Shown piece by piece: positions 7,207 through 19,015 of a stretch of 64,000 nt of DNA (positions are counted from its first letter, which is position 1; every line of letters begins with the position of its first letter). Position numbers and translations under genes: made by a program. The stretch is from Rhodobacter viridis (GTDB taxonomy: Bacteria; Pseudomonadota; Alphaproteobacteria; Rhodobacterales; Rhodobacteraceae): positions 1 through 64,000 of the forward strand of contig NZ_QJTK01000010.1 in assembly GCF_003217355.1 (NCBI RefSeq), read 5' to 3'. Below the pieces are notes generated by a model. The model saw only the letters and a program-made list of their open reading frames with translations. It ran no database searches and was not told where the DNA came from.

Positions 7207-7968
7207 TCAACCAAACAGGGCAGCGAGGGTCATGTAACCAACCGACGGAACCATCAGGCAGCCAAAGCCCGTGTAGAACGTGGCCGTCAGCGCGCCGTAG
7301 GGCACGAGTTTCGGATCGGTCGCGGCAAGGCCCGCGCTCACGCCGCTCGTGGTGCCCATCAGACCGCCGTACACCGCAGCGGCCGCCGGAGTGGTCAGGC
7401 CCGCAGGTTTCGCCAGAAGCGGCGTCAGGATCATCACGGCGATGGATTTCACCACACCGGCCGCCACCGAAAGCGCGATCACCTCGGACGAGGCGCCCAG
7501 CGCCGCGCCGGTCACCGGGCCGACGATGAAGGTCGTCGCGCCGCCGCCGATCGTCGCCATGTCCACGACGCTGGTGTAGCCAAACGCATAGGCCACGGCC
7601 GCGCCGACCGCGGTCGAGATGATGACCGAGATCACAAGGGCGATGCCGCCCGCCAGACCGGCCTTTTTCACTTCTTCAAGTTTCACGCCGAAGGCGGTCG
7701 ACACGATGGCGAAGTCGCGCAGCATGGCGCCGCCCATCAGCCCGAAGCCCGCAAACAGCGAGATGTCCGAGATGCCCTTGGTGCCGCCGGAGACCTTGCC
7801 GCCGATATAGGCCAGCACAAGCCCCGCGACGATGGCGATGGCCGAGCCGTGGATGCGGTTGTTGACCAGTTTGCCGATCGCATAGGAGATCCACATGATC
7901 ACGCCGACGATGGCGAAAGCGGTGATCAGCGGCAGTTTCTCGAGCGTTCCTACGATGATGTCGAGCAT
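7207..7968 (-). CDS. madM: Malonate transporter subunit MadM
   Basis: A 253-residue integral membrane protein, the larger of the two MadLM subunits that import malonate, described as malonate:Na+ symport in Malonomonas. It is glycine/alanine-rich with about eight helices, including GFGLMGGAMLRDFAIVSTAF and IGGGATTFIVGPVTGAALGA. The ATG at 7968 has AAGGAG nine bases upstream and lies one base after the madL stop, so the two are coupled. It closes the mad operon and is followed by bioM. Confidence 0.92.
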   Translation of the reverse strand: MLDIIVGTLEKLPLITAFAIVGVIMWISYAIGKLVNNRIHGSAIAIVAGLVLAYIGGKVSGGTKGISDISLFAGFGLMGGAMLRDFAIVSTAFGVKLEEVKKAGLAGGIALVISVIISTAVGAAVAYAFGYTSVVDMATIGGGATTFIVGPVTGAALGASSEVIALSVAAGVVKSIAVMILTPLLAKPAGLTTPAAAAVYGGLMGTTSGVSAGLAATDPKLVPYGALTATFYTGFGCLMVPSVGYMTLAALFG

Positions 7969-7969
7969 G

Positions 7970-8380
7970 TCATTTCGCTCCTTGCGCAGCGCGTTTGGCC
8001 GGTTTGGCCGCATCTTCGGGTTCGGACGAGCCGCTGAGCGCCGAGAGCGGACGGATCAGCAGGAAGCCCGCGACCACCGGCAGGAAACCGGCGATGAAGG
8101 CCATGGTGCCCGCATCGAAAGCCGCGACGACGTTCTGGCTGGCGGCCATCGCAACGACGATCGGGATATACATCGCCGACCAGAACTTGATGCCGTCCTG
8201 CGCCAGTTCCGACATCCGCTCGCGATCGATGAACCAGCGCGAGATGACGACGAGCAGCAGCATGGCGATGCCGACGCCGCCGACATCGGCGTCGATGCCG
8301 ACCATATGCCCGATCAGCTTGCCGATGATCACACCCGCGATCAGGCAGCCGCTCATCAGCGAGACCCCGTAAATCAACAT
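7970..8380 (-). CDS. madL: Malonate transporter subunit MadL
   Basis: A 136-residue membrane protein with about four helices and a charged C-terminal tail (EPEDAAKPAKRAAQGAK). It pairs with MadM, whose gene follows after one base, to form the malonate carrier. The N-terminus MLIYGVSLMSGCLIAGVIIG matches the MadL family. A 64-nt gap with a perfect stem-loop separates it from madF, so the transporter genes may be expressed at a different level from the enzyme genes. Confidence 0.92.
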   Translation of the reverse strand: MLIYGVSLMSGCLIAGVIIGKLIGHMVGIDADVGGVGIAMLLLVVISRWFIDRERMSELAQDGIKFWSAMYIPIVVAMAASQNVVAAFDAGTMAFIAGFLPVVAGFLLIRPLSALSGSSEPEDAAKPAKRAAQGAK

Positions 8381-8444: not shown

Positions 8445-8654
8445 TTATTCGATGCTCATGATCACCGCACCGGGTTTCAGACGATCACCGGCAGCGACGG
8501 CGATCGATTTCACCGTGCCGTCGAGCGGCGCGGGCATTTCGTTCTTCATCTTCATCGCCTCGACGACGGCGAGGCATTGCCCCTTGGTGACGGTGGCGCC
8601 CACCGCGACCTCGATCGACACGACGACCGACGGCATCTTCACTTTCACATCCAT
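8445..8654 (-). CDS. madF: MadF, biotin carboxyl carrier protein of malonate decarboxylase
   Basis: A 69-residue biotinyl domain, complete as a free-standing carrier. The biotinylation motif is EAMKMKNE with Lys35 as the attachment site, flanked by the usual GATVTKGQCLAVV and PLDGTVKSIAV strands. MadC/MadD transfer CO2 from malonyl-ACP to this biotin, and MadB then releases it with Na+ export. Its start lies inside the 3' end of madK (10-nt overlap). The adjacent biotin ligase and biotin transporter genes presumably supply and attach its cofactor. Confidence 0.95.
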   Translation of the reverse strand: MDVKVKMPSVVVSIEVAVGATVTKGQCLAVVEAMKMKNEMPAPLDGTVKSIAVAAGDRLKPGAVIMSIE

Positions 8655-9397
8655 GGCCTTCTCCTTTCGGCTTGTTTCATTGGGTGTTGCGGGGCGGCCC
8701 GCCCTTGGGACGGGACCGCGAAAACGGTGTTCAGGCGCTCGCGTTCGATCAGCTCGACGCCGGTGATGGTCTTGCCCAGCACCGTGGCCGCGCCCGACAC
8801 GAGTTCTGTCAGCTTGACGCCGATGCCCCCCGCCAGATCGGCCTCGGCATCGATGGCAATCGCCTGACGATAAGACAGCCGCTCCAGCGCCCGGGCGGCG
8901 GCGGCCAGCGGCGGCAGGCTGTCGGCCCGCACCACCAGATCGATGTCCGAACCCGGCCGCAGATAGGGCAGCCCGGTCACCGTCTGCAGCGCGGCCGAGC
9001 CGATCAGGCCGATCTCGACCCCGGTCACCGCGCCGATCCGGGCGATCTCGGGCAGGGCCGGATGCAGGCTCGCGCCAAGGATCAGCGCGCGCTCCATCAC
9101 CTCGTAGGGGGTGAAGAAGGCGGTGACCTGACCGCGCCGCACCGGCACCGCCGCGCGCACCCGTTCGGCGCCGTGGCGGAACGGGAAGGCAAAGCCGAGC
9201 TGGCCGCCGCCATCCGGGCAGGGGCCGGTCGGGCGGCAGACGATGCCGGGAATATGCGCCTTGCTCATCGCGTCGCGCACGAGTTTGCGGGTCGCCCCGT
9301 CGCGCATCTGCTCTGGCAGGGCGTCGAGGACGGCAGCAAGGATGCCCGGGCGCGAGGCGGGCGAAACATGGGCAAGGCTGTGTCGATTGCGAAACAT
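8645..9397 (-). CDS. madK: MadK, phosphoribosyl-dephospho-CoA transferase (holo-ACP synthesis)
   Basis: A 250-residue MdcG/CitX-like nucleotidyltransferase that attaches the 2'-(5''-phosphoribosyl)-3'-dephospho-CoA group to the acyl carrier MadE. The nucleotidyltransferase core is visible as GLIGSAALQTVTGLPYL followed by GSDIDLVV with the paired metal-binding Asp residues (residues about 133-160). N-terminal RHSLAHVSP is also typical of MdcG. It follows the madH stop by one base and overlaps madF by ten. MadG supplies its substrate. Confidence 0.88.
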   Translation of the reverse strand: MFRNRHSLAHVSPASRPGILAAVLDALPEQMRDGATRKLVRDAMSKAHIPGIVCRPTGPCPDGGGQLGFAFPFRHGAERVRAAVPVRRGQVTAFFTPYEVMERALILGASLHPALPEIARIGAVTGVEIGLIGSAALQTVTGLPYLRPGSDIDLVVRADSLPPLAAAARALERLSYRQAIAIDAEADLAGGIGVKLTELVSGAATVLGKTITGVELIERERLNTVFAVPSQGRAAPQHPMKQAERRRPWM

Positions 9398-9398
9398 C

Positions 9399-10487
9399 TC
9401 AGCGCCTCTTGATCCAGGCGGGGTCGGTCTTGGCGGTGCGGCTCATCTCGCGCTGCGCCAACACCATCGTGTCGAAAAGCGCGGTGGCCGTGGGCCCCTC
9501 GATCACGATCGGCGCGGCGGGGGTGGCGAGGGCGGGCACCAGTTCCAGCCGCGTCGCCGCAGCCCCCGTCACCAGATCGGGCGAAACCTTCACCACCCGG
9601 CTCTTGATGCGCAGGATCGTGCGGGCGGTCTTTTCGACCGTCTCGGCGGCGCTCATCGGGGTGTGGGTGACGATCACCTCGTATTCGGGATAGGTGCGCG
9701 CGCGGCGATAGGTGATGATCTGGCCGGTCCGGTCGCAGACATGGCCCGCCTCCGAGACGACGAAACTGTCGCCCATCGGCAGCCCGCCCACCACCAACTC
9801 GCGCCAGGGATCGCCAAGCGGCGAGGCGACCAACGCGATATCCTCGCGCAGCGGCAGGCCATCGAGCGTCAGCCAGCCGAATTCCTGACAGCCGTAAAGA
9901 TCGTGGACGCTGTAGCCGAAGGCCTCGGCCACCGGCAGCAGTTCGGCATCAAGCGGCGTGCCCGCGCACAAAAGCACGCAGTCCTTCGGCATCTCGCGCT
10001 TCAGCCCCAGCTCCAGCGCCTGTTCGAGGCTCGCCCGCAGGAAGGACGATTCCCCAAGGATCACGCGCGGTTGCGTGCGGCAGGCGGCGACCAGCAGCGC
10101 ATCGCGGCTGGAGCGGTGCAGATGGCTCCAGTCGATGCCGCAGACATCCAGCGCCAGTTTCGAGAACACATTGACCAGCGGCGGATAGGTGACCAGCATC
10201 CGCGCCCCCTGCCCCACCTGCAGCCGCCCGAAAATCTCCCGGGCGACGGCGGTGCGGTTGGGCAATTCGGCATGGGTGACGCCGACGATGGTCTGGAAAG
10301 CGGACGAGCCCGTGGTGAAGGTCAGATAGGCCAGATTGAAGGGGGTGTGGACCTCCTCGATCACATGCGCCGCGGTGGGGCCGTCGATACCCTTCTGGGC
10401 AAGCGACCGGCGCGGCATCTCGGCCAAGGTCGGCGCCGACCCGAACAGGGTCAGCGCGTCTTCAAGGGCAGCAAGATCGTCAGGCAT
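9399..10487 (-). CDS. madH: MadH, ACP-SH:acetate ligase
   Basis: A 362-residue adenylate-forming enzyme that acetylates the free thiol of the MadE prosthetic group, priming the cycle. The first adenylation-type signature is visible as YLTFTTGSSAFQTIVGVTH; later DLYGCQEFGWLTLDG and the typical GDSFVVSEAGHVCDRTGQI segment match AMP-binding enzymes. The length is shorter than a full acyl-CoA synthetase, as expected for the family. The gene position between madD and madK matches the Malonomonas order. Confidence 0.88.
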   Translation of the reverse strand: MPDDLAALEDALTLFGSAPTLAEMPRRSLAQKGIDGPTAAHVIEEVHTPFNLAYLTFTTGSSAFQTIVGVTHAELPNRTAVAREIFGRLQVGQGARMLVTYPPLVNVFSKLALDVCGIDWSHLHRSSRDALLVAACRTQPRVILGESSFLRASLEQALELGLKREMPKDCVLLCAGTPLDAELLPVAEAFGYSVHDLYGCQEFGWLTLDGLPLREDIALVASPLGDPWRELVVGGLPMGDSFVVSEAGHVCDRTGQIITYRRARTYPEYEVIVTHTPMSAAETVEKTARTILRIKSRVVKVSPDLVTGAAATRLELVPALATPAAPIVIEGPTATALFDTMVLAQREMSRTAKTDPAWIKRR

Positions 10488-10516: not shown

Positions 10517-11410
10517 TCAGCGGGCGGGCGCGTAACGCCCGGCCACTTCCGCGAATTCGCGGTTCATCAGCGCGATGACGCGCGGGCGCTCGGTGCGGCC
10601 GCCGCGGGCTTCGCCCAGCTTGCCGCGGCCCCAGGGGCCCAGATCGTCCTGCCGCCCCTCGGCCTTGGCCGTGCGGACCTCGGCGATGCGGGCGGCGATG
10701 GCCGGACGCATCCCCTCGACCGTTTCGACCAGCGCTTCGACGCCGCCGAGCGAGTGGAAGAAGCGCGGACCGGCGGCGAAGACGGCGCTGGCCTTGGACA
10801 GATCTTCGAGCGTTTCCAGATCCTTGCGGATGATCCGCGAGACCGATGTCAGCGGCATGACATGGATCATCGTGCCGAATTGCGCATCAAGCGACAGGAT
10901 CGCATCGGCTTGCAGCCCGTGGCACAGGAACGCCCCCGAGATCGCCCGGCCGATCACCATGGCGATGATCGGATGGCCCTTCAGCCGCGCCTCGGCCAGC
11001 GCCAATTGATAGGCGGCGGTCGATTTGTTCATGCCGAAGATTTCCTCGACCTTGCCCGGGCCGTTGCCGGGGGTGTCGACGATCAGCACCAGCGGCCGTT
11101 TCTCGGCGAGCGGCTTTTCGGCATCGGCCGCGATCGAGGCATAGACGGCTTCCGCCATCTTGTAGCCTTCCTCGAGCCCGATGATCCCGGCGTAGACGAC
11201 CGGGAATTTCTCGTTCATCGCGCCACCGTCCGAGGCGATGATCGTGCAGAGCGTGCCCTGCACCGTCGCTGTGCCGACGACCGCGCCCGGCCCGAATTCG
11301 GGATCGGCGAAGGCCTCGGTGCCCACCGTGCCCTCGGCAAAGCTGCCAGCATCCACGATCATCTCGATCGCGTCGCGGCCCCGGCCCATCATGCTTTCTT
11401 GCATTTCCAT
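10517..11410 (-). CDS. madD: MadD, malonyl-ACP:biotin carboxyltransferase gamma-like subunit
   Basis: A 297-residue crotonase-fold carboxyltransferase subunit related to MdcE. It begins MEMQESMMGRGRDAIEMIVD and carries PLVLIVDTPGNGPGKVEEIF and AMVIGRAISGAFLCHGLQAD, where backbone amides form the oxyanion hole in this fold. With MadC it moves the carboxyl group of malonyl-ACP to the biotin of MadF. The ATG at 11410 is preceded by AAAGGAG; an upstream in-frame start overlapping madC is less likely. Confidence 0.9.
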   Translation of the reverse strand: MEMQESMMGRGRDAIEMIVDAGSFAEGTVGTEAFADPEFGPGAVVGTATVQGTLCTIIASDGGAMNEKFPVVYAGIIGLEEGYKMAEAVYASIAADAEKPLAEKRPLVLIVDTPGNGPGKVEEIFGMNKSTAAYQLALAEARLKGHPIIAMVIGRAISGAFLCHGLQADAILSLDAQFGTMIHVMPLTSVSRIIRKDLETLEDLSKASAVFAAGPRFFHSLGGVEALVETVEGMRPAIAARIAEVRTAKAEGRQDDLGPWGRGKLGEARGGRTERPRVIALMNREFAEVAGRYAPAR

Positions 11411-11430: not shown

Positions 11431-12387
11431 TCACACGCTGAGCCGCTCGACGCGGGCGAGGAAGTCGCTCAGGGGCAGGTCGATCAGCCCCCAGGCGTCG
11501 GTGTTGCCGGCATGCGACCAGACTTCGGTCGCGTCGCCCGGCTGCATCTGCGCGGCCAGCGCCACGGCGCGCAGCTGCGCCTTGACCTTGGCGGAAGAGC
11601 CGATGCGGCGCATTTCCTCAAACGCCTCGATCGAGAGGCCGGTCAGCGCCGAGACCTGTTCGCGGAAGGCGGCGATGCTGTTTTCGACAAGGAAATTCGC
11701 GTCGCCCATGATGTATTTGTGCCGCCCGCCGGTGGTGCGGAAGACAAGCGCGCGGTCGGAGGCGTCGAATTCCTCCTTGCCCATTTCCTGCTCGATCACC
11801 TCCGGGCCGGTCAGGCCAAGGCGGCCGAATTCCGACATGATGATCACGTCGGTGGCGGCGGCGACGAAGCCCATGCCGCCGAAGGCACCGACTTTCGAGC
11901 CGATCAGCGCAATCACCGGCACCTTGCCGCGGGCCTTTTGCAGTTGGTCCATCACCTCGGCATGGGCCAGAAGCCCGGCGTTGGCTTCATGCAGCCGCAC
12001 GCCGCCGGTCTCGAAGGAGATCACCACCATCGGCTTTTCTTCCTCGTCGAGATCGGCGAATTTCGCGACCAGCTCGTCGTGGAAGTCGATGGCGAGCTTG
12101 ATCGTGTTCACCATCTTGGCGCCGCCGATCTCGCCCACCGAGCCGCCGATGAAGCGACCCTCTTGCGAGATCACGAACACCGGGGTGCGGCCGATTTGGC
12201 CCACGCCGGTGACGATGCCGTCGTCAAAGGCCACGGCGTCGCCGAGCAGTTTCAAGTGCGGGCTCGTCACCCGGTCGAACGGCCCGGCGAGTTCGGTGAA
12301 GCTGCCCTCGTCCACGAGGCCGATGGCACGCTCGCGCGCCGAGGCTTCGATGAAGCGGCAGGATTGCAGGTCTGTCCAGTTGGTCAT
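11431..12387 (-). CDS. madC: MadC, malonyl-ACP:biotin carboxyltransferase beta-like subunit
   Basis: A 318-residue carboxyltransferase subunit related to MdcD and AccD. Characteristic stretches are VISQEGRFIGGSVGEIGGAK, VISFETGGVRLHEANAG and ALIGSKVGAFGGMGFVAAAT, which build the CoA/ACP-binding crotonase fold. It works with MadD. The ATG at 12387 starts 13 nt after the madE stop; the open frame upstream overlaps madE and has no family character. Confidence 0.92.
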   Translation of the reverse strand: MTNWTDLQSCRFIEASARERAIGLVDEGSFTELAGPFDRVTSPHLKLLGDAVAFDDGIVTGVGQIGRTPVFVISQEGRFIGGSVGEIGGAKMVNTIKLAIDFHDELVAKFADLDEEEKPMVVISFETGGVRLHEANAGLLAHAEVMDQLQKARGKVPVIALIGSKVGAFGGMGFVAAATDVIIMSEFGRLGLTGPEVIEQEMGKEEFDASDRALVFRTTGGRHKYIMGDANFLVENSIAAFREQVSALTGLSIEAFEEMRRIGSSAKVKAQLRAVALAAQMQPGDATEVWSHAGNTDAWGLIDLPLSDFLARVERLSV

Positions 12388-12400
12388 TGTCGTCTTCGCC

Positions 12401-12712
12401 TCAGAGCGCCGCGGCCAGCGCCTGTTGCAGGCGCAACAGCACGACGGCGGGGGTGGCGTTGTTGTCGTTGATCTCGATGGCGGTGTCGTAAAGGCCCGTC
12501 TCATCAAGGAATTTCTGCATCACGCGGGCCCAGAGCGGGTCGAAGCCGGTGACCGGGGTGACGATCTTGACCGTCACCCGGCCCGAAAGGGGCGCGGGCG
12601 TCAGCATGATTTCCAGATCGCTCGACCCGGTGACACCGGTGTGGCTGGGGGCGGGAAGGGTGACCTTGGCCGCGCTGGCGGCAAGGTCGAGCTCAAGGGT
12701 ATGCAAAGCCAT
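12401..12712 (-). CDS. madE: MadE, acyl carrier protein of malonate decarboxylase
   Basis: A 103-residue carrier of the MdcC/CitD type. The prosthetic-group attachment site is the serine of GVTGSSDLEIML (Ser30 or Ser31), which receives phosphoribosyl-dephospho-CoA rather than phosphopantetheine. The thiol carries acetyl and then malonyl groups through the catalytic cycle. It starts 14 nt after the madA stop. A much longer overlapping frame through madA is a shadow; the ATG at 12712 gives family length. Confidence 0.93.
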   Translation of the reverse strand: MALHTLELDLAASAAKVTLPAPSHTGVTGSSDLEIMLTPAPLSGRVTVKIVTPVTGFDPLWARVMQKFLDETGLYDTAIEINDNNATPAVVLLRLQQALAAAL

Positions 12713-12726
12713 GATCTGGGCCTTTC

Positions 12727-14400
12727 TTACCAGTTGCGGAAACGGGCGGGCGGGTTGTAGAGGCCGCCGGACCAGGTCACGAGATCGCGCATGCTCTTGG
12801 CCGCGAGCAGGTCGCGGGTGGCGCGGTTGGGATCGACGCCAAGGTCGGCCGGGGTTTTCACGATGCCCGCCTCGCGCAGCGCCCGGGTTTCCTCGGGTTT
12901 CGCGGCAAGGCCGATCTCGGTGAAGCCCGCGACGGCGCGGATGGCGGCCATGCGGGCCTCCATGTCCTTGCAGCGGTTGAGGTAGGCGATGCCGTCCTCG
13001 GTGACGATATGGGTCAGGTCGTCGCCATAGATCATCACCGGCGGGATCGGCAGGTTCGCGCTTTTCGCCAGTTTCCAGGCGTCCAGTTCCTCGACAAAGA
13101 CCGGCTTGCGGCCCTCGCCGAAGGTCTCGACGCCCTGCACGACCAGACGTTTGCCGCGCGGGATGTTGCCGATGTCGCGCTCGAGCGAGGGCAGTTCCTG
13201 CCCGCATTTGAGCCAGGCATCGGTCGGATGGCGCCGCCCCTTGGCATCGCAGCCCATGTTCGGCGCGCCGCCGAAGCCCGCGACCCGGCCCGCCGTCGCG
13301 GTCGAGGAGTTGCCGTATTTGTCGATCTGCAGCGTGCCGCCGATGAACATGTCGATGGCGTAATGCCCGGCCGTCTGGGCAAAGGCGCGGTTCGAACGCA
13401 GCGAGCCATCCGGCCCGACGAAGAAGATGTCCGGCCGTGAGGCGACATAGTCTTCCATGCCGAGTTCGCCGCCGAAGCAGTGGATCGTGTCGACCCAGCC
13501 CTCTTCGATCGCCGGGATCATCGTCGGATGCGGGTTCAGGATCATATGCGTGCAGCATTTGCCCTTGAGCCCCAGTTCCAGCCCATAGGTCGGCAGGATC
13601 AGCTCGATCGCCGAGGTCAGGAAGCCGATGCCGTGGTTCATCGAGGTCACGCCATATTCGGCGTAAATGCCCTTCAGACACAGCATGGCGAGCAGGATCT
13701 GGCTGTCGGTGACCAGTGCGGGATCACGGGTGAAGAGCGGCTCGATGAAGAAGGGCTTCGGCGATTGGATGACCGCATCGACCCAGTCGCCCGGGATGTC
13801 GACACGCGGCAGTTCGTCAACGATTTCATTGACCTGCGCGATGACGATGCCTTCGCGGAACTTCGTCGCCTCGACGATGGCCGGGGTGTCTTCGGTGTTG
13901 AAGCCGGTATAGAGGTTGCCCTTGCGGTCGGCCTTGTAGGCGCAGACCAGCGAGACGCGCGGCGTCAGGTCGAGGAAGTAGCGGCCGAAGAGTTCCAGAT
14001 AGGTGTGGATGGCACCGAGCTCGATCTTGCCGTTCTCGATGAATTTCGCCACCCGCCCGGCTTGCGGGCCGCCAAAGGCGAAGTCGAGTTTCTTGGCGAT
14101 GCCGTTTTCGAACAGATCAAGATGTGCGGGCAGCGGCACGGCCGATTGCACCATGTGCAGGTCGTGGATCTTGCCGCGGTCCACCTTGTTCAGGCAGTCG
14201 GCAAGGAAATCGGCCTGTTTCTGGTTGTTGCCTTCGATGTTGACGATGTCGAAGGGGCGGATCACCGCTTCCAGAAGGGCCACGGTATCCTTGGCCAGCA
14301 CTTCCTTGCCCTTGACGAAGAGGGGTGCTGCCGCCTCCTTGCGCGCGGCGGTATCTGCCGCCCGCTTACGCCAGCTGTTGCGCTTGTCGTCGTTCGTCAT
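12727..14400 (-). CDS. madA: MadA, acetyl-ACP:malonate ACP transferase
   Basis: A 557-residue homologue of MdcA, the alpha subunit, which exchanges acetate for malonate on the carrier MadE. The protein is full length and CoA-transferase-like. Recognisable segments are PFDIVNIEGNNQKQADFLAD at residues about 49-68, EYGVTSMNHGIGFLTSAIEL near the middle and PTMIPAIEEGWVDTIHCFGG after it. It follows the biotin ligase gene by 30 nt. Acetate is the product released each turn. Confidence 0.94.
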   Translation of the reverse strand: MTNDDKRNSWRKRAADTAARKEAAAPLFVKGKEVLAKDTVALLEAVIRPFDIVNIEGNNQKQADFLADCLNKVDRGKIHDLHMVQSAVPLPAHLDLFENGIAKKLDFAFGGPQAGRVAKFIENGKIELGAIHTYLELFGRYFLDLTPRVSLVCAYKADRKGNLYTGFNTEDTPAIVEATKFREGIVIAQVNEIVDELPRVDIPGDWVDAVIQSPKPFFIEPLFTRDPALVTDSQILLAMLCLKGIYAEYGVTSMNHGIGFLTSAIELILPTYGLELGLKGKCCTHMILNPHPTMIPAIEEGWVDTIHCFGGELGMEDYVASRPDIFFVGPDGSLRSNRAFAQTAGHYAIDMFIGGTLQIDKYGNSSTATAGRVAGFGGAPNMGCDAKGRRHPTDAWLKCGQELPSLERDIGNIPRGKRLVVQGVETFGEGRKPVFVEELDAWKLAKSANLPIPPVMIYGDDLTHIVTEDGIAYLNRCKDMEARMAAIRAVAGFTEIGLAAKPEETRALREAGIVKTPADLGVDPNRATRDLLAAKSMRDLVTWSGGLYNPPARFRNW

Positions 14401-14430: not shown

Positions 14431-15261
14431 TCAAAGGGTTGCTTGCGTCGCGACGAGGGGGATCTCGCCGAAGATGACGCTGTGAAGGGTGCCGTCGGCG
14501 TCGCGCAGGCACAGCGCCCCATCCGGGCCAAGCGCTTCGGCGATGCCCTGACGGGGGGCATGCGGCGCGGCGAGGATGACGGGGCGGCCGAGCGTGCAGG
14601 AGCGCACCGACCAGGCGTGGCGGGCGGGTTCGAAACCGAGGCGTTCCCATTCGGAAAGCCGGTAATCGAGCCGGTCGATGAGCGCCGTGAACAGTTCGAA
14701 GCGATCCACCTTGCGGCCGGTTTCGGCGCTGATCGAGGTGGCGATGGCTTGCAGTTCCGGCGGGAAATCCGTGCGGGCCTGGGCAAGGTTGATGCCGATC
14801 CCCGCGATGATGTGGTCCAGATCGCCCTCGGGGGTCATCACCATTTCGCACAGGATGCCCGAGAGCTTGCGGCCTTCGACCATCAGGTCGTTCGGCCATT
14901 TGATTTGCGGTGCCAGACCCGTGGTGCGGGCGATGGCCTCGGCCGCGGCAACGGCGATGACAAGCGTCACCTGTGCCAGATCGGCGAGAGGGCGGGAGGG
15001 ACGCAAAAGCACCGAGGCGAGCAGACTTTCACCGGGACGCGAAACCCAGCGACGGTCGTATTTGCCCCGTCCTGCCGTCTGATGATCGGCAAGGACGACG
15101 GTGCCTGTCGGTGCGCCCCTCCGCGCCAGACCGGCCAGGAAGGTGTTCGTCGAGGAGAGAACAGGCCGGTGGTGGACCGCGCAGCCGATCCCGCCCCGAC
15201 GCCGGAAGGGAAGCGCAAGCGTCGGGAGGTTCGGGAGAAGGTCGGGATGGTGCGCGGTCAT
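14431..15261 (-). CDS. Biotin protein ligase inserted in the mad operon
   Basis: A 276-residue BirA-type biotin--protein ligase without an N-terminal DNA-binding domain. The biotin/AMP motif is TAGRGKYDRRWVS (the GRG loop), the catalytic lysine motif is KWPNDLMVEGRKLSGIL, and a C-terminal SH3-like part follows. It lies between madB (29-nt gap) and madA, so its likely target is Lys35 of MadF. A second, general ligase for acetyl-CoA carboxylase would be expected elsewhere in the genome. Placement inside the mad operon is not part of the Malonomonas gene order as I recall it. Confidence 0.88.
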   Translation of the reverse strand: MTAHHPDLLPNLPTLALPFRRRGGIGCAVHHRPVLSSTNTFLAGLARRGAPTGTVVLADHQTAGRGKYDRRWVSRPGESLLASVLLRPSRPLADLAQVTLVIAVAAAEAIARTTGLAPQIKWPNDLMVEGRKLSGILCEMVMTPEGDLDHIIAGIGINLAQARTDFPPELQAIATSISAETGRKVDRFELFTALIDRLDYRLSEWERLGFEPARHAWSVRSCTLGRPVILAAPHAPRQGIAEALGPDGALCLRDADGTLHSVIFGEIPLVATQATL

Positions 15262-15290: not shown

Positions 15291-16499
15291 TCAGTGGACG
15301 AGACCGATGGTCGAGGCGAAGACACCGACGGCGATGGCCGAGACGATCACCCCGCAGATCGAGGCACCCATGGCGAGCGGCATGATCATGGCGTAGGGGT
15401 TGACCGCGGCGGCTTCCTTCTGGGCGATCTTCGCGGTCGAAGGCACACAGGAGACGCCGGCGATACCGATGACGGGGTTGAAGTTGCCTTTCGAGATCCA
15501 CCACATCAGATAGCCGCCGCCGATGCCGCCCAGCGCCGAGAAGAAGAGCGCGGTGATGCCAAGGATCAGCAGGATGGCGACTTGCGGGTCGAGCAGGGTT
15601 TTCGCCTCGCACAGCGTCCCCAGCACCAGACCCAGGAACAGGGTCGACGCATAGGTGACCGTGTTTTCAAGGAATTGCTGGTAGGGCTCGATTTCCGCTT
15701 CCTTGATCGCAACGCCGAGGAAGAACGACAGGATCAGCGGCGTGGCGACGGGCAGCAGCAGGCAGAGCAGGCCGGCAGCGACGACGGTGAAGACGAACTT
15801 GGCTTGCGGCGTGACATCGGGGAAATCGTATTCGACTTCGATGGCACGGTGTTCGGGCTTGATCAGCCAACGCACAAGGTAGGGGTAACCGGCATAGGTC
15901 AGCGACAGGTAGAGGTAAGCGATGATCGAGATCGGCACGAAGAGGTTCTTCGCCATCATCAGCGAGCCAAAGAGCACCATCGGGCCATCGGCGCCGCCGA
16001 TCGTGCCCACGGCCGCCGCTTCACCGGGCGTCAGACCGCAATAGTAGCCGATCACCAGCGTCACGAAGGTGCCGAGTTCCGCACAGACCGCCACCGCGAT
16101 CGAGGCCCAGGGCCGCGCCAGGATGAAGGAAATGTCGGCCATCGTGCCGATGCCCATGAAGAGCATGCAGGCGACCAGCGAGTTGACGAAGGTCAGGTTG
16201 TAGACCGGCTGCAGGAAGTCGATCTGCATGATGTTCATCAGCGCGTTGGTGTCCGACACCATCGGGTCGATCACCAGCGTGCCGATCTGGCCGCCTTCGA
16301 GGATCATGACACCGGCGTTGACCGCCATCATGCCAAGGCCCATCGGCACCATGATCAGCGGCTCAAGCGTGCGCTTGAAGCCCAGATAGGCCAGCAGGAA
16401 GCCAAGACCGATCAGCGCCAGACGGGCGAAGGAAATCAGCGGGTCCTGGATGAAAAGGGTCCCGATACCGGGAAAGATGTTGAACAGGGTCTCAAGCAT
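15291..16499 (-). CDS. madB: MadB, Na+-pumping carboxybiotin decarboxylase
   Basis: A 402-residue membrane protein of the OadB/GcdB/MadB family, which decarboxylates carboxybiotin on MadF and exports Na+. The conserved re-entrant motif GTIGGADGPMVLFGSLMMAK contains the Asp used for Na+ transport. A second conserved region is NFNPVIGIAGVSCVPSTAKI, where the Asn/Ser residues bind Na+ in OadB. About eleven helices are visible. Its start lies nine nt after a 38-codon gene for a single-helix protein. Confidence 0.93.
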   Translation of the reverse strand: MLETLFNIFPGIGTLFIQDPLISFARLALIGLGFLLAYLGFKRTLEPLIMVPMGLGMMAVNAGVMILEGGQIGTLVIDPMVSDTNALMNIMQIDFLQPVYNLTFVNSLVACMLFMGIGTMADISFILARPWASIAVAVCAELGTFVTLVIGYYCGLTPGEAAAVGTIGGADGPMVLFGSLMMAKNLFVPISIIAYLYLSLTYAGYPYLVRWLIKPEHRAIEVEYDFPDVTPQAKFVFTVVAAGLLCLLLPVATPLILSFFLGVAIKEAEIEPYQQFLENTVTYASTLFLGLVLGTLCEAKTLLDPQVAILLILGITALFFSALGGIGGGYLMWWISKGNFNPVIGIAGVSCVPSTAKIAQKEAAAVNPYAMIMPLAMGASICGVIVSAIAVGVFASTIGLVH

Positions 16500-16508
16500 T
16501 TGAGCGCC

Positions 16509-16625
16509 TCAGGATGCGTTGGGGGAGGAGAGGAGTTTCGAGATGCCGACGATCACGCCGATCACGGCAAAGGAGATCGCCGCAGTGATCAGATAACTGA
16601 ACACAGCATAGGTGATGATGTGCAT
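16509..16625 (-). CDS. 38-residue single-helix membrane protein (OadG-related small subunit)
   Basis: The peptide begins MHIITYAVFSYLITAAISFA, continues VIGVIVGISKLL, and ends SSPNAS. It is one hydrophobic helix with a short polar tail. It sits 9 nt before madB and 8 nt after madG, with GAGG in the preceding madG end. Its position beside the Na+ pump and its topology resemble the small gamma (OadG-like) subunits that stabilise decarboxylase beta subunits. The role is inference from position and topology. Confidence 0.72.
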   Translation of the reverse strand: MHIITYAVFSYLITAAISFAVIGVIVGISKLLSSPNAS

Positions 16626-16633
16626 GGGATGCC

Positions 16634-17569
16634 TCAGAGGTTGGAGGAGAGGATGGGCGGCAGGCTGCCCCCCGAGAGCGTGTCGACGCCGATGGTGACG
16701 GCCAGAAGATCGGCCGCGCCGCCGGGGCTGATGTTGCGCGCGATGAAGCGGGCATCGAGGGCGTGGATGGCGGCAAGCCCCGTCCCCGTCAGCGCGCCGC
16801 CCATCGCCATGATCTCGCGCGCGGAGTTGCGCACGAATTCAAGGGCTTCCAGGCCGCCGCGCCACAGGACCGTGGTGTCTTCGGTGCCGCTCATCAGCGC
16901 CAGAAGCGTGTGCGAGAGCGCGATCGGCAGCGTCGCCCCGGCGGCGCGCGCCTCGGTGAGCGCCGGAAGGCCAAGCGTGGCCACGGTCGGAAAGCCCGCC
17001 TCGGCCTCGCCGCGGATGCCCAGCACGCCATATTGCCGGAAGAGCTTCTCGCCCGCCGTCACCGGCTCGCGGTCGAGCGTGCCGCGCAGCTCGCGGTCGC
17101 AGATACCGCTGACCATCGCGGCGGCAATGGCGAACAGCTCCCCTGCCCCGGCGATCGGCGCCTTGCGCGCGGCGATCCCGGCCGCAGCCGACAGCACCCC
17201 CGCCGAAAACAGCAGGCCGCGCTGGGTGTTGATGCCACCCGTCGCCGCAAGGAGCCGCGCCTCGTAAAGCGCGCCAATCTCGCGGACCTGCGGCAGCAGG
17301 CCAAGCGCCGGGCCGGAATGGCCCAGACCCGCCTCGGCGCATTGGTAAAGGCAGGGGGCAATGACCGCCGACGAGACCATGAAGGTCTGCAGCGTCATGT
17401 CCCGATGCGCGCCGTTCGAAAGCGGCGTCACCAGACCGGGTTTGGGATGGGTGGAGATTTCAAGCAGCGCCCCGGTCAGGAAAGCCGATCCGATGGACCA
17501 GGCGCTGGAATGCGGTGACAGGGCCATATCGCTGAACCAGTCCAGCGGCCTGCGCAACGCGTATTTCAT
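16634..17569 (-). CDS. madG: MadG, triphosphoribosyl-dephospho-CoA synthase
   Basis: A 311-residue CitG/MdcB-family enzyme that makes the precursor of the MadE prosthetic group from ATP and dephospho-CoA. The family signature HPKPGLVTPLSNGAHRDM (residues about 38-55) is intact, and a second conserved region is TGGINTQRGLLFSAGVLS. It is the first structural gene of the operon. The ATG at 17569 is preferred over a TTG at 17587; only a weak GGGAC site is visible upstream. Confidence 0.9.
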   Translation of the reverse strand: MKYALRRPLDWFSDMALSPHSSAWSIGSAFLTGALLEISTHPKPGLVTPLSNGAHRDMTLQTFMVSSAVIAPCLYQCAEAGLGHSGPALGLLPQVREIGALYEARLLAATGGINTQRGLLFSAGVLSAAAGIAARKAPIAGAGELFAIAAAMVSGICDRELRGTLDREPVTAGEKLFRQYGVLGIRGEAEAGFPTVATLGLPALTEARAAGATLPIALSHTLLALMSGTEDTTVLWRGGLEALEFVRNSAREIMAMGGALTGTGLAAIHALDARFIARNISPGGAADLLAVTIGVDTLSGGSLPPILSSNL

Positions 17570-17610
17570 GGTATTAGTCCCGCGCAACTGACGGCAGCGC
17601 GGCGCTTCGT

Positions 17611-17625
17611 GAACGCCAGGCGTTC
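17611..17625. promoter_or_regulatory. Perfect palindrome upstream of madG, possible operator
   Basis: GAACGCC-A-GGCGTTC is a perfect inverted repeat with a single central base, 42-56 nt upstream of the madG ATG. It could be a repressor or activator site for the mad operon, or an RNA hairpin in the leader. Confidence 0.45.
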
Positions 17626-17961
17626 CACGGCCAATGCAGAGATTACATCTGGTCGGGGAGACCGTCAGACATGCGCCACACCGTTGTCACTTGCTCACGC
17701 GGCGCTTTGGGTTCGTCAGCCGCACCTTCGCCCCACACGGGCAGTACGGCTCATCACGGGATCACGGCCCTTTCGGGCGGCCCCGCCTCACGTTCCTGTG
17801 ATGGTTCGTGATCCGGAGCATGGCGCAATCGTTACGCCCGTCGGTTCCGCTTGTCCAGAAGTCGTTTTCAAGGGGCAAGAGGATGCGACATTGCGCCGCA
17901 CATTTGCAATTATTCAGCGAAAAATCATGCGGTTGGCCATATGAAACGGGCCTTTGCAACA

Positions 17962-17994
17962 GCGGCGGGCGGCAGCCGACACTGCCCCCGCCGC
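17962..17994 (-). terminator. GC-rich stem-loop downstream of the HutP-like gene, possible attenuator
   Basis: GCGGCGGGCGGCAG (17962-17975) pairs with CTGCCCCCGCCGC (17982-17994) over a 6-nt loop with one bulge. It lies 68 nt after the HutP-like stop on the same strand. No U-run follows, so it is not a textbook terminator. It may end or attenuate transcription into the mad operon. Confidence 0.4.
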
Positions 17995-18061
17995 TCGCGA
18001 TTTCGTCAACGACCACAGGCGATTGCGACCCCGATCGCCGCCGCCATGCAGGTTTGACAAG

Positions 18062-18478
18062 CTAGATATGCATCACCCCAAAGCCGATGCGCTCGTGGTT
18101 GGTGATCGGATGGAAGGCCGATTCGCCATGCGCGGCGACCGCCACCCAATGGCCATCGGCCACCAGCGCCACCTTGAGCTTGAGGTTCGACTCGGCCACG
18201 ACCGACGAACTCACCCCGTTCAGGCATTCGAGCCCGGCATGGATCACGCCGTGAATCTCGCCCGGGCGATTGCGCACCACCTGCGCATTCAGCGCACAGG
18301 CCACGATCGATTTCACGAAGCCCTTCTCGATTTCCGACCGCCGCCCGGTGACATAGGTGATGCCCACCTTCCAGGTCGGGTGGCTCAGGATCTGCTCCTT
18401 GATCAGTTCTTCCTCTTCCCGGCTGCTGATCGCCGCCATGATGGCGGCCTTGCCGATACGATCCGCGACAACTTCCAT
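18062..18478 (-). CDS. HutP-family RNA-binding antiterminator-like regulator
   Basis: A 138-residue homologue of Bacillus HutP, the histidine- and Mg2+-dependent RNA-binding antiterminator of the hut operon. Family marks are in place: RIGKAAIMAA at 7-16, EIHGVIHAGLECLNGV with His76 and His80 matching the metal/ligand His73 and His77 of HutP, NHER with His128-Glu129 matching His138, and the ending GFGVMHI matching GVGINHI. The ATG at 18478 gives the Bacillus-like N-terminus; ATG at 18514 or 18538 are alternatives. The gene lies upstream of and co-directional with the mad operon, with no hut genes nearby. The inferred role is leader-RNA control of malonate genes; the ligand is unknown. Confidence 0.75.
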   Translation of the reverse strand: MEVVADRIGKAAIMAAISSREEEELIKEQILSHPTWKVGITYVTGRRSEIEKGFVKSIVACALNAQVVRNRPGEIHGVIHAGLECLNGVSSSVVAESNLKLKVALVADGHWVAVAAHGESAFHPITNHERIGFGVMHI

Positions 18479-18595
18479 TTTATGTTCCGATCCGACCCGT
18501 TTCGCGCCGTTCATAGCGGCAGGCGGGATAGGGCTCAATCGCGATGATCAAGCCGCCGTGCGCCCGTCGGGTCGGTCACGCCGGGTCAGACCGCG

Positions 18596-19015
18596 TCAGT
18601 TGATCCCGATCGAGACCATGAAAGAGGTCGTCTTGCCCTTATCGGCATCGTCGCCCATCTGATAGACGCGGATGCGGTAATCGCCCGATTTCGGCAGCTT
18701 GACCCCGGTGGCGTCGAGCCCGTCGACCGAGCCGTTGTAGATCGCCTCGCCGGTGCTGCCGGGCGGCATGATGTTGAAATAGATCGTGCCGTGGCCGTTC
18801 GAGGCCCCCGGAATGAGCGACACCGCCATCGTCTGCCCCGCCTTCGCGCCGAGCAGATAATCGACATAGGCATCGCCGACGATCGCGCCATTGATCGCAG
18901 CATTGTCGTTGCCGGGTTCGAATTTCACCCGCGAATGGCTTTGCGCCTCGGCCATCGGGGCGGCGAGGGCAAGGCAAAGACCGGCCGCGACAATCAGCGA
19001 ACGAAGATCAGGCAT
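18596..19015 (-). CDS. Secreted lysozyme-inhibitor-like protein
   Basis: A 139-residue protein with a Sec signal peptide (MPDLRSLIVAAGLCLALAAP, cleavage after AEA). The mature part contains DYLLGAKAGQTMAVSL, then YFNIMPPGSTGEAIYNGS and SGDYRIRVYQMGDDA. This pattern recurs in periplasmic g-type lysozyme inhibitor-like proteins. I assign the fold by recalled pattern, not by search, and binding to lysozyme is inference. The ATG at 19015 has AAAGGA upstream. It diverges from the MscS-type channel gene. Confidence 0.65.
   Translation of the reverse strand: MPDLRSLIVAAGLCLALAAPMAEAQSHSRVKFEPGNDNAAINGAIVGDAYVDYLLGAKAGQTMAVSLIPGASNGHGTIYFNIMPPGSTGEAIYNGSVDGLDATGVKLPKSGDYRIRVYQMGDDADKGKTTSFMVSIGIN

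Follow-up and report, generated by a model that had tools for sequence, protein, structure and literature searches.

What does a HutP-like protein do in front of a malonate decarboxylase operon? As an RNA-binding protein that antiterminates the genes of histidine use, HutP has been studied in detail (PMC7430163 and PMC8934654, in excerpt). In the 64,000-nucleotide stretch of Rhodobacter viridis DNA analysed here (the window), however, the operon behind the hutP-like gene encodes malonate decarboxylase rather than hut functions. Our literature searches found no paper linking HutP to malonate. The reading we favor, to which we give slightly less than an even chance, is that this mad-type HutP regulates the Na+-pumping mad operon, and that binding of a metal and malonate would refold a leader RNA and open citG, the first gene of the operon.

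The HutP-like gene and the operon that follows it

The hutP-like gene lies at 18065..18478 on the reverse strand, with its stop codon at 18062-18064, and encodes 138 residues. Its initial annotation as HutP-type was borne out by a full-length match to the Pfam HutP family PF09021 (117 bits, E 8.3e-34, cut-off 25; model positions 1-128 of 128), and the sequence features first singled out in it are all present: the HxxxH formed by His76 and His80, the His128-Glu129 pair and the C-terminal GFGVMHI. Among solved HutP chains, the protein sequence matched 4ok9 (E 7.7e-5). Structural comparison agreed, with HutP entries, most of them titled RNA-binding or antitermination protein, taking the nine best Foldseek places for the predicted fold (1vea best, at E 4.8e-8; rmsd 4.2-5.5 and query-normalised TM 0.62-0.71 across the nine), followed by anti-sigma factors (SpoIIAB, E 5.2e-4). 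The fold model was built with five close sequences and was the only confident one of five (mean pLDDT 77; the other four, 34-40). Fold, full-length family match and metal-site histidines (HxxxH plus a late His) are shared with HutP of Bacillus (1vea, 1wmq, 4h4l, 4ok9), as is the position of the gene just upstream of a leader and an operon. Identity to the three hut-type proteins compared was 26-33%, and the protein falls far below the cut-off of the NCBIfam hutP equivalog NF002838 (32.5 vs 155 bits). By sequence, the window gene is predicted to encode a HutP-family protein, but not a hut-type HutP. It is the sole HutP match in its genome. Close HutP proteins were found in named records of R. 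capsulatus, where the RefSeq annotation already reads 'HutP family protein', R. aestuarii and Rhodobacter sp. TJ_12; a scan of genome contigs with the single protein reached close relatives only, at four loci.

The gap of 492 nt that had been noted between hutP and madG on the same strand was confirmed by measurement from the hutP stop codon to the ATG at 17569. From there the operon continues on the reverse strand with citG/mdcB (madG; triphosphoribosyl-dephospho-CoA synthase, 311 aa, 16634..17569), madB for the carboxybiotin decarboxylase Na+ pump subunit (15291..16499; TIGR03136, 784.5 bits vs a cut-off of 596.9), a biotin--protein ligase gene (14431..15261) and mdcA/madA for malonate decarboxylase alpha (12727..14400, over its cut-off). 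Next come mdcC for the acyl carrier protein (12401..12712, assigned by position and the R. capsulatus annotation), mdcD (beta, 11431..12387) and mdcE (gamma, 10517..11410), the starts of the last two being picked to fit the R. capsulatus gene lengths. An AMP-binding protein gene (9399..10487), unmatched in Pfam up to E 1 and named from the R. capsulatus annotation, we take to be madH-like. The remaining genes are mdcG for holo-ACP synthase (8645..9397), a biotin carrier protein gene with the AMKM motif (BCCP, 8445..8654) and the malonate transporter genes madL (7970..8380) and madM (7207..8013, start uncertain), both over their cut-offs; ECF biotin transporter genes come after madLM. From its gene content, this is a predicted biotin-dependent, Na+-pump-type malonate decarboxylase (mad) operon.

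The malonate decarboxylase of Malonomonas rubra is membrane-bound, biotin-dependent and coupled to Na+ transport (PMC5534430, in excerpt). Its mad cluster shares with the window citG/madG, madB, mdcA/madA, the carrier protein, beta and gamma, the AMP-binding protein, BCCP and madLM; what sets the window apart is a HutP-type gene with a leader ahead of the operon, a biotin ligase gene inside it and ECF biotin transporter genes behind it. We take the M. rubra gene order to be madYZGBAECDHKFLMN.

R. capsulatus SB 1003 carries the whole hutP-mad unit, in the same gene order, on its plasmid pRCB133. As had been reported for the window, hut genes are absent from the surroundings, with none annotated in the 37-kb region fetched from SB 1003. 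The mdc/mat malonate operons under LysR or GntR control (MdcR, MatR) share the substrate but have DNA-binding regulators. In the 37 kb of R. capsulatus neither a LysR nor a GntR gene is annotated; ROK and AraC regulator genes lie several kb away in that region.

Between citG and madB we observed an unannotated, membrane-type ORF of 38 aa (16509..16625, reverse strand). A frame of this kind (MNIIxYA...ISFAVIGVIVGISKLL, 37-38 aa) occupies the same place in 7/7 Rhodobacter loci, and the two enterobacterial mad loci described below (L015, L055) have a related small frame at this position. Pairwise codon differences within Rhodobacter were 87 nonsynonymous and 180 synonymous, and because the substitutions are of this coding type we judged the ORF a likely gene. 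It may perhaps encode a small Na+ pump subunit.

Co-occurrence with MadB and comparison with hut-type HutP

A survey for HutP beside mad operons had been suggested at the outset, and it found the linkage conserved. HutP exceeded its cut-off in 7 of the 18 genomes of the genus and MadB in the identical seven. In an even phylum sample of 398 genomes, each was found once over cut-off, in the window's own genome. One of the 343 genomes of a family taken as Enterobacteriaceae (five members match Klebsiella pnp DNA at 81-89%) carried both HutP and MadB, each over cut-off, in one operon; a second, overlapping draw of 197 relatives gave no further MadB, and the genus of G543 comprised a single genome. 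In a plasmid collection, MadB (E 1e-60 or better) was found in two records, both of which also contained HutP. In the enterobacterial-like genome hutP is the last gene, after madLM, and likewise in Klebsiella pneumoniae 176. The gene thus stands at opposite operon ends in Rhodobacter (before citG) and enterobacteria (after madLM), and the mad-linked proteins of the two share only 24% identity; the HutP-mad association has therefore outlived rearrangement. Being related, the seven Rhodobacter genomes do not amount to seven independent events; we count two to three contexts. The sequence comparisons support a conserved linkage of HutP to mad genes across two distant lineages that differ in gene order.

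Histidine use showed a different distribution. No hutH (histidine ammonia-lyase) over cut-off was found in the seven HutP genomes of the genus, while the two genus genomes (of 18) with hutH over cut-off both lack HutP. Rhodobacter HutP thus seems to travel with the malonate Na+ pump rather than with histidine use, and we rejected a histidine-regulator role for mad-type HutP on the absence of hutH over cut-off from those seven genomes. Three HutP genomes hold hutH relatives below the cut-off (G000:C6:36079-37536, G009:C1:1143999-1145501, G014:C132:17991-19526); in R. capsulatus a tyrosine ammonia-lyase is the likely identity.

Several weaker matches were set aside. First, sub-cut-off HutP matches in G046 and G098 (about 21 bits, over short parts of 540- and 551-aa frames) were treated as chance because tblastn with mad and HutP queries was empty in L008 and L013. 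Second, MadB-like proteins below the TIGR03136 cut-off, present in 99/398 phylum and 3/18 genus genomes, were left out of the MadB counts. The thirteen best-scoring of these loci (L018-L030), all from the phylum sample, encode proteins with 50-55% identity to MadB (460-508 bits), and madB was the only one of ten queried proteins to match there, within flanks of 1.5 kb or less on each side; G224 and G120 each carry several MadB-like copies close together on one contig. Third, a scan of viral contigs gave 50 stretches, none confirmed, and phage records gave three weak partial matches only. Lastly, the enterobacterial mad operon had no match in E. coli genomes. The record CP125156.1 (L015) is filed as a Klebsiella pneumoniae plasmid; it is 5.37 Mb long and carries the chromosomal genes rpsO, pnp and infB.

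Comparison with hut-type proteins separated the mad-linked ones in several respects. The reference set came from Cytobacillus, Priestia, Niallia and Peptoclostridium, whose genes all lie upstream of hutH (by annotation, or by tblastn for Niallia). The histidines of HxxxH and HE are present in all four, with Asp replacing Glu in two, and both motifs (His76, His80, His128) are present in 7/7 Rhodobacter proteins; in B. subtilis HutP we take the metal-site histidines to be H73, H77 and H138, the hut-type protein being a hexamer to which L-histidine and Mg2+ bind. Both enterobacterial homologues lack them, and among the mad-linked HutP proteins seen, the predicted metal site is kept in Rhodobacter only. 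At the positions aligned with Bacillus Thr56, Arg88 and Glu137, presumably RNA or ligand contacts, all nine mad-type proteins have Ala/Gly, Ser/Ala/Thr and Asn/Thr, whereas Thr, Arg and Glu stand there in 4/4 hut-type proteins. A stretch of 12-13 residues of hut-type HutP is missing from the mad-linked proteins of both lineages, its place varying between two alignments. Common to mad-linked HutP of both lineages are a Glu at 119 and Cys-Ala-Leu at 61-63.

The enterobacterial divergence weighs most against one common account of mad-linked HutP. In these loci a LysR gene lies downstream of hutP, and the enterobacterial protein, without the metal site and beside LysR, may work differently or serve the enzyme. 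The same two loci speak for the explanation that the HutP-like protein is an accessory or assembly factor of malonate decarboxylase or the transporter and not a regulator: hutP is there the last gene, adjoining madLM and beside LysR, and the loci lack both the metal-site histidines and, by covariance model, the leader described below. MadN of Malonomonas rubra, whose function is to our understanding unknown, presumably holds the same end position. Against this stand the nine best fold matches, all HutP and mostly titled RNA-binding or antitermination proteins, and the place of the Rhodobacter gene before a conserved leader, and we consider an accessory role improbable. Upstream of enterobacterial citG (L015:2190-2393 and the same stretch of L055) we also observed a conserved inverted repeat, TTACGTTGAGCGTAA, with a further GCGTAA, which we take to be a pattern of the LysR-site type.

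The leader RNA between hutP and citG

The 492-nt gap in front of citG contains a conserved candidate for a leader RNA. Matched by eye, a putative promoter-like site of hutP itself, TTGAGC-N17-TATGAA, lies at 18510..18538 (reverse strand), with the 17-nt spacer kept in 7/7 loci and a poor second hexamer in L002. A second putative site, TGGACA-N17-TAACGA, lies within the gap at 17829..17857 (reverse strand), 285-301 nt before citG in all seven Rhodobacter loci; 19 of its 31 columns are invariant over the seven, the second hexamer is TATCGC or TATCGA in three, and a simple consensus promoter scanner listed no site at this position. A transcript beginning there would carry a leader of about 250 nt (17570..17822, reverse strand), the start being placed from the promoter-like site. 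Between this site and citG 128/258 counted columns are invariant, compared with 492/930 in citG itself and 33/213 between hutP and the site. The GC-rich stem-loop that the initial annotation had placed in the leader exists (17956..17998, reverse strand, -33 kcal/mol, no T run), but it falls in the poorly conserved stretch just after hutP, 5' of the mad promoter-like site and so outside the conserved leader; perhaps it ends the hutP transcript.

The leader alignment folds with lower energy than 200/200 column shuffles (z -2.87), which preserve neither neighbours nor relatedness. Taken separately, the 5' half is equalled by 3 of 200 shuffles and the 3' half by 6 of 200, and the window leader alone is mildly more stable than its shuffles (z -1.55, 14/200 as stable). 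Counted without selection, it contains eight helices of 7 or more pairs (shuffle mean 0.6) and seven competing helix pairs (shuffle mean 0.06), neither count being reached by any of the 200 shuffles. Three helices, all on the reverse strand, compete. Helix A joins a 5' arm, GCGCCGCGU (17697..17705), to a 3' arm, GUGUGGCGC (17673..17681), and is paired in 7/7 loci with one G-C to A-U exchange. The 3' arm of helix A doubles as the 5' arm of helix B, whose own 3' arm, GCGCCGCGC (17597..17605), lies near citG and repeats the helix A 5' arm; helix B is paired in 97% of alignment cells. In helix C, part of the helix A 5' arm (17702-17696) can pair in 7/7 loci with UGCGCGG (17580..17586), which adjoins the ribosome-binding-site-like GGGA of citG. 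Helix A excludes helices B and C, giving competing folds with one helix beside the ribosome-binding site. Judged from this predicted layout, the leader has the anatomy of a translation switch. With seven leaders, drawn from two clades within a single genus, covariation is thin: 2/18 pairs change on both sides, a pair count that 311/500 shuffles reach.

Could such a leader be a riboswitch in its own right, sensing Na+, malonate, biotin or a precursor of coenzyme A, while HutP acts at some other site such as a different transcript? The competing helices, and the strong conservation of stretches beyond the helices, do look riboswitch-like. A covariance model of the leader core (R1, 17629..17767, reverse strand), however, had a single match below E 1e-27 in each of seven genomes out of 121, always at the mad operon, and these are the seven that carry both MadB and HutP; the best match after them had E 0.036. 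The covariance search was run with stricter filters, and the search for HutP covered 61 relatives plus the phylum sample rather than all 121 genomes. The model found nothing in the two enterobacterial loci. In Rfam 15 nothing matched 17400-18900 at E of 5 or below, on which we rejected a known riboswitch in the leader, and we hold a riboswitch independent of HutP to be distinctly improbable.

Classical antitermination would have the protein bind single-stranded repeats and prevent an intrinsic terminator, as in Bacillus hut. It draws on the shared family and on the layout of hutP, leader and operon in Rhodobacter, which is that of hut operons. Hut leaders combine an intrinsic terminator with NAG repeats in clusters of three, the array being the published target (PMC7430163, in excerpt). 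The four hut control leaders all contain terminators, of 17-23 pairs, and two of the four contain a three-NAG array. In contrast, 0/7 mad leaders have an intrinsic-terminator-like site downstream of their promoter-like site, even under limits looser than for the controls, and 0/7 have a NAG-N4-NAG-N4-NAG array; the terminator-like hairpins of L011, L012 and L002 all precede the promoter-like site. We therefore regard a regulator plus leader switch as supported and hut-like antitermination as not, reject the hut-type mechanism for these leaders and give its classical form little chance. Of the two possibilities first raised for this locus, the leader-RNA switch is supported by the conserved leader and linkage, whereas antitermination in the hut manner fell with the missing terminator and array.

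Translation-coupled attenuation by a 15-codon leader peptide has very little chance and was rejected: the frame (GTG at 17690 to TAA/TAG ending 17643, reverse strand) and its stop are kept in 7/7 leaders, but its codon differences mostly change amino acids (100 nonsynonymous vs 21 synonymous, against 87 vs 180 in the neighbouring small ORF), and the helix A arm within it explains its conservation otherwise. We judged this stretch to be RNA and probably not a gene.

A proposed regulatory mechanism

For the reading that we favor, regulation of the mad operon by HutP through its leader, the steps can be set out as follows. From its own putative promoter hutP would be transcribed separately, and a second promoter within the hutP-citG gap would start the mad transcript with its leader of about 250 nt. 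In one fold, the 3' end of the leader beside the citG ribosome-binding site would be paired to the upstream segment CCGCGUG; in the other, that segment would be locked into a local hairpin. The effector, for which malonate, biotin and acetate were first named, would most likely be malonate, chelated to a divalent metal at His76, His80 and His128. Protein carrying the effector would bind the leader and shift it towards the open form, and more expression of citG and the downstream genes would follow, by translation and/or by denying Rho access. Both promoters, the binding of HutP to the mad leader, the effector and the direction of the effect are what we infer. That malonate chelates the metal at the retained histidines is an appealing guess, and the full chain, in which the protein reads malonate by chelation at the old histidine site, refolds the leader and opens the ribosome-binding site, we rate as possible though rather unlikely.

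If the reading is right, it would add a second branch of HutP, tied to malonate decarboxylation, from a different phylum and with a different type of leader, and would show how a metabolite-sensing RNA binder changes its ligand and RNA target. HutP would then be a wider family of metabolite-sensing RNA binders in which ligand and RNA mechanism have both changed, and a protein-gated leader-RNA switch of this type would be new to Proteobacteria. It would also propose a regulator for the malonate-driven Na+ pump.

In R. capsulatus the immediate upstream neighbour of hutP is a PAS-domain gene, which could participate in regulation; the window has a different gene there, unmatched in Pfam up to E 1.
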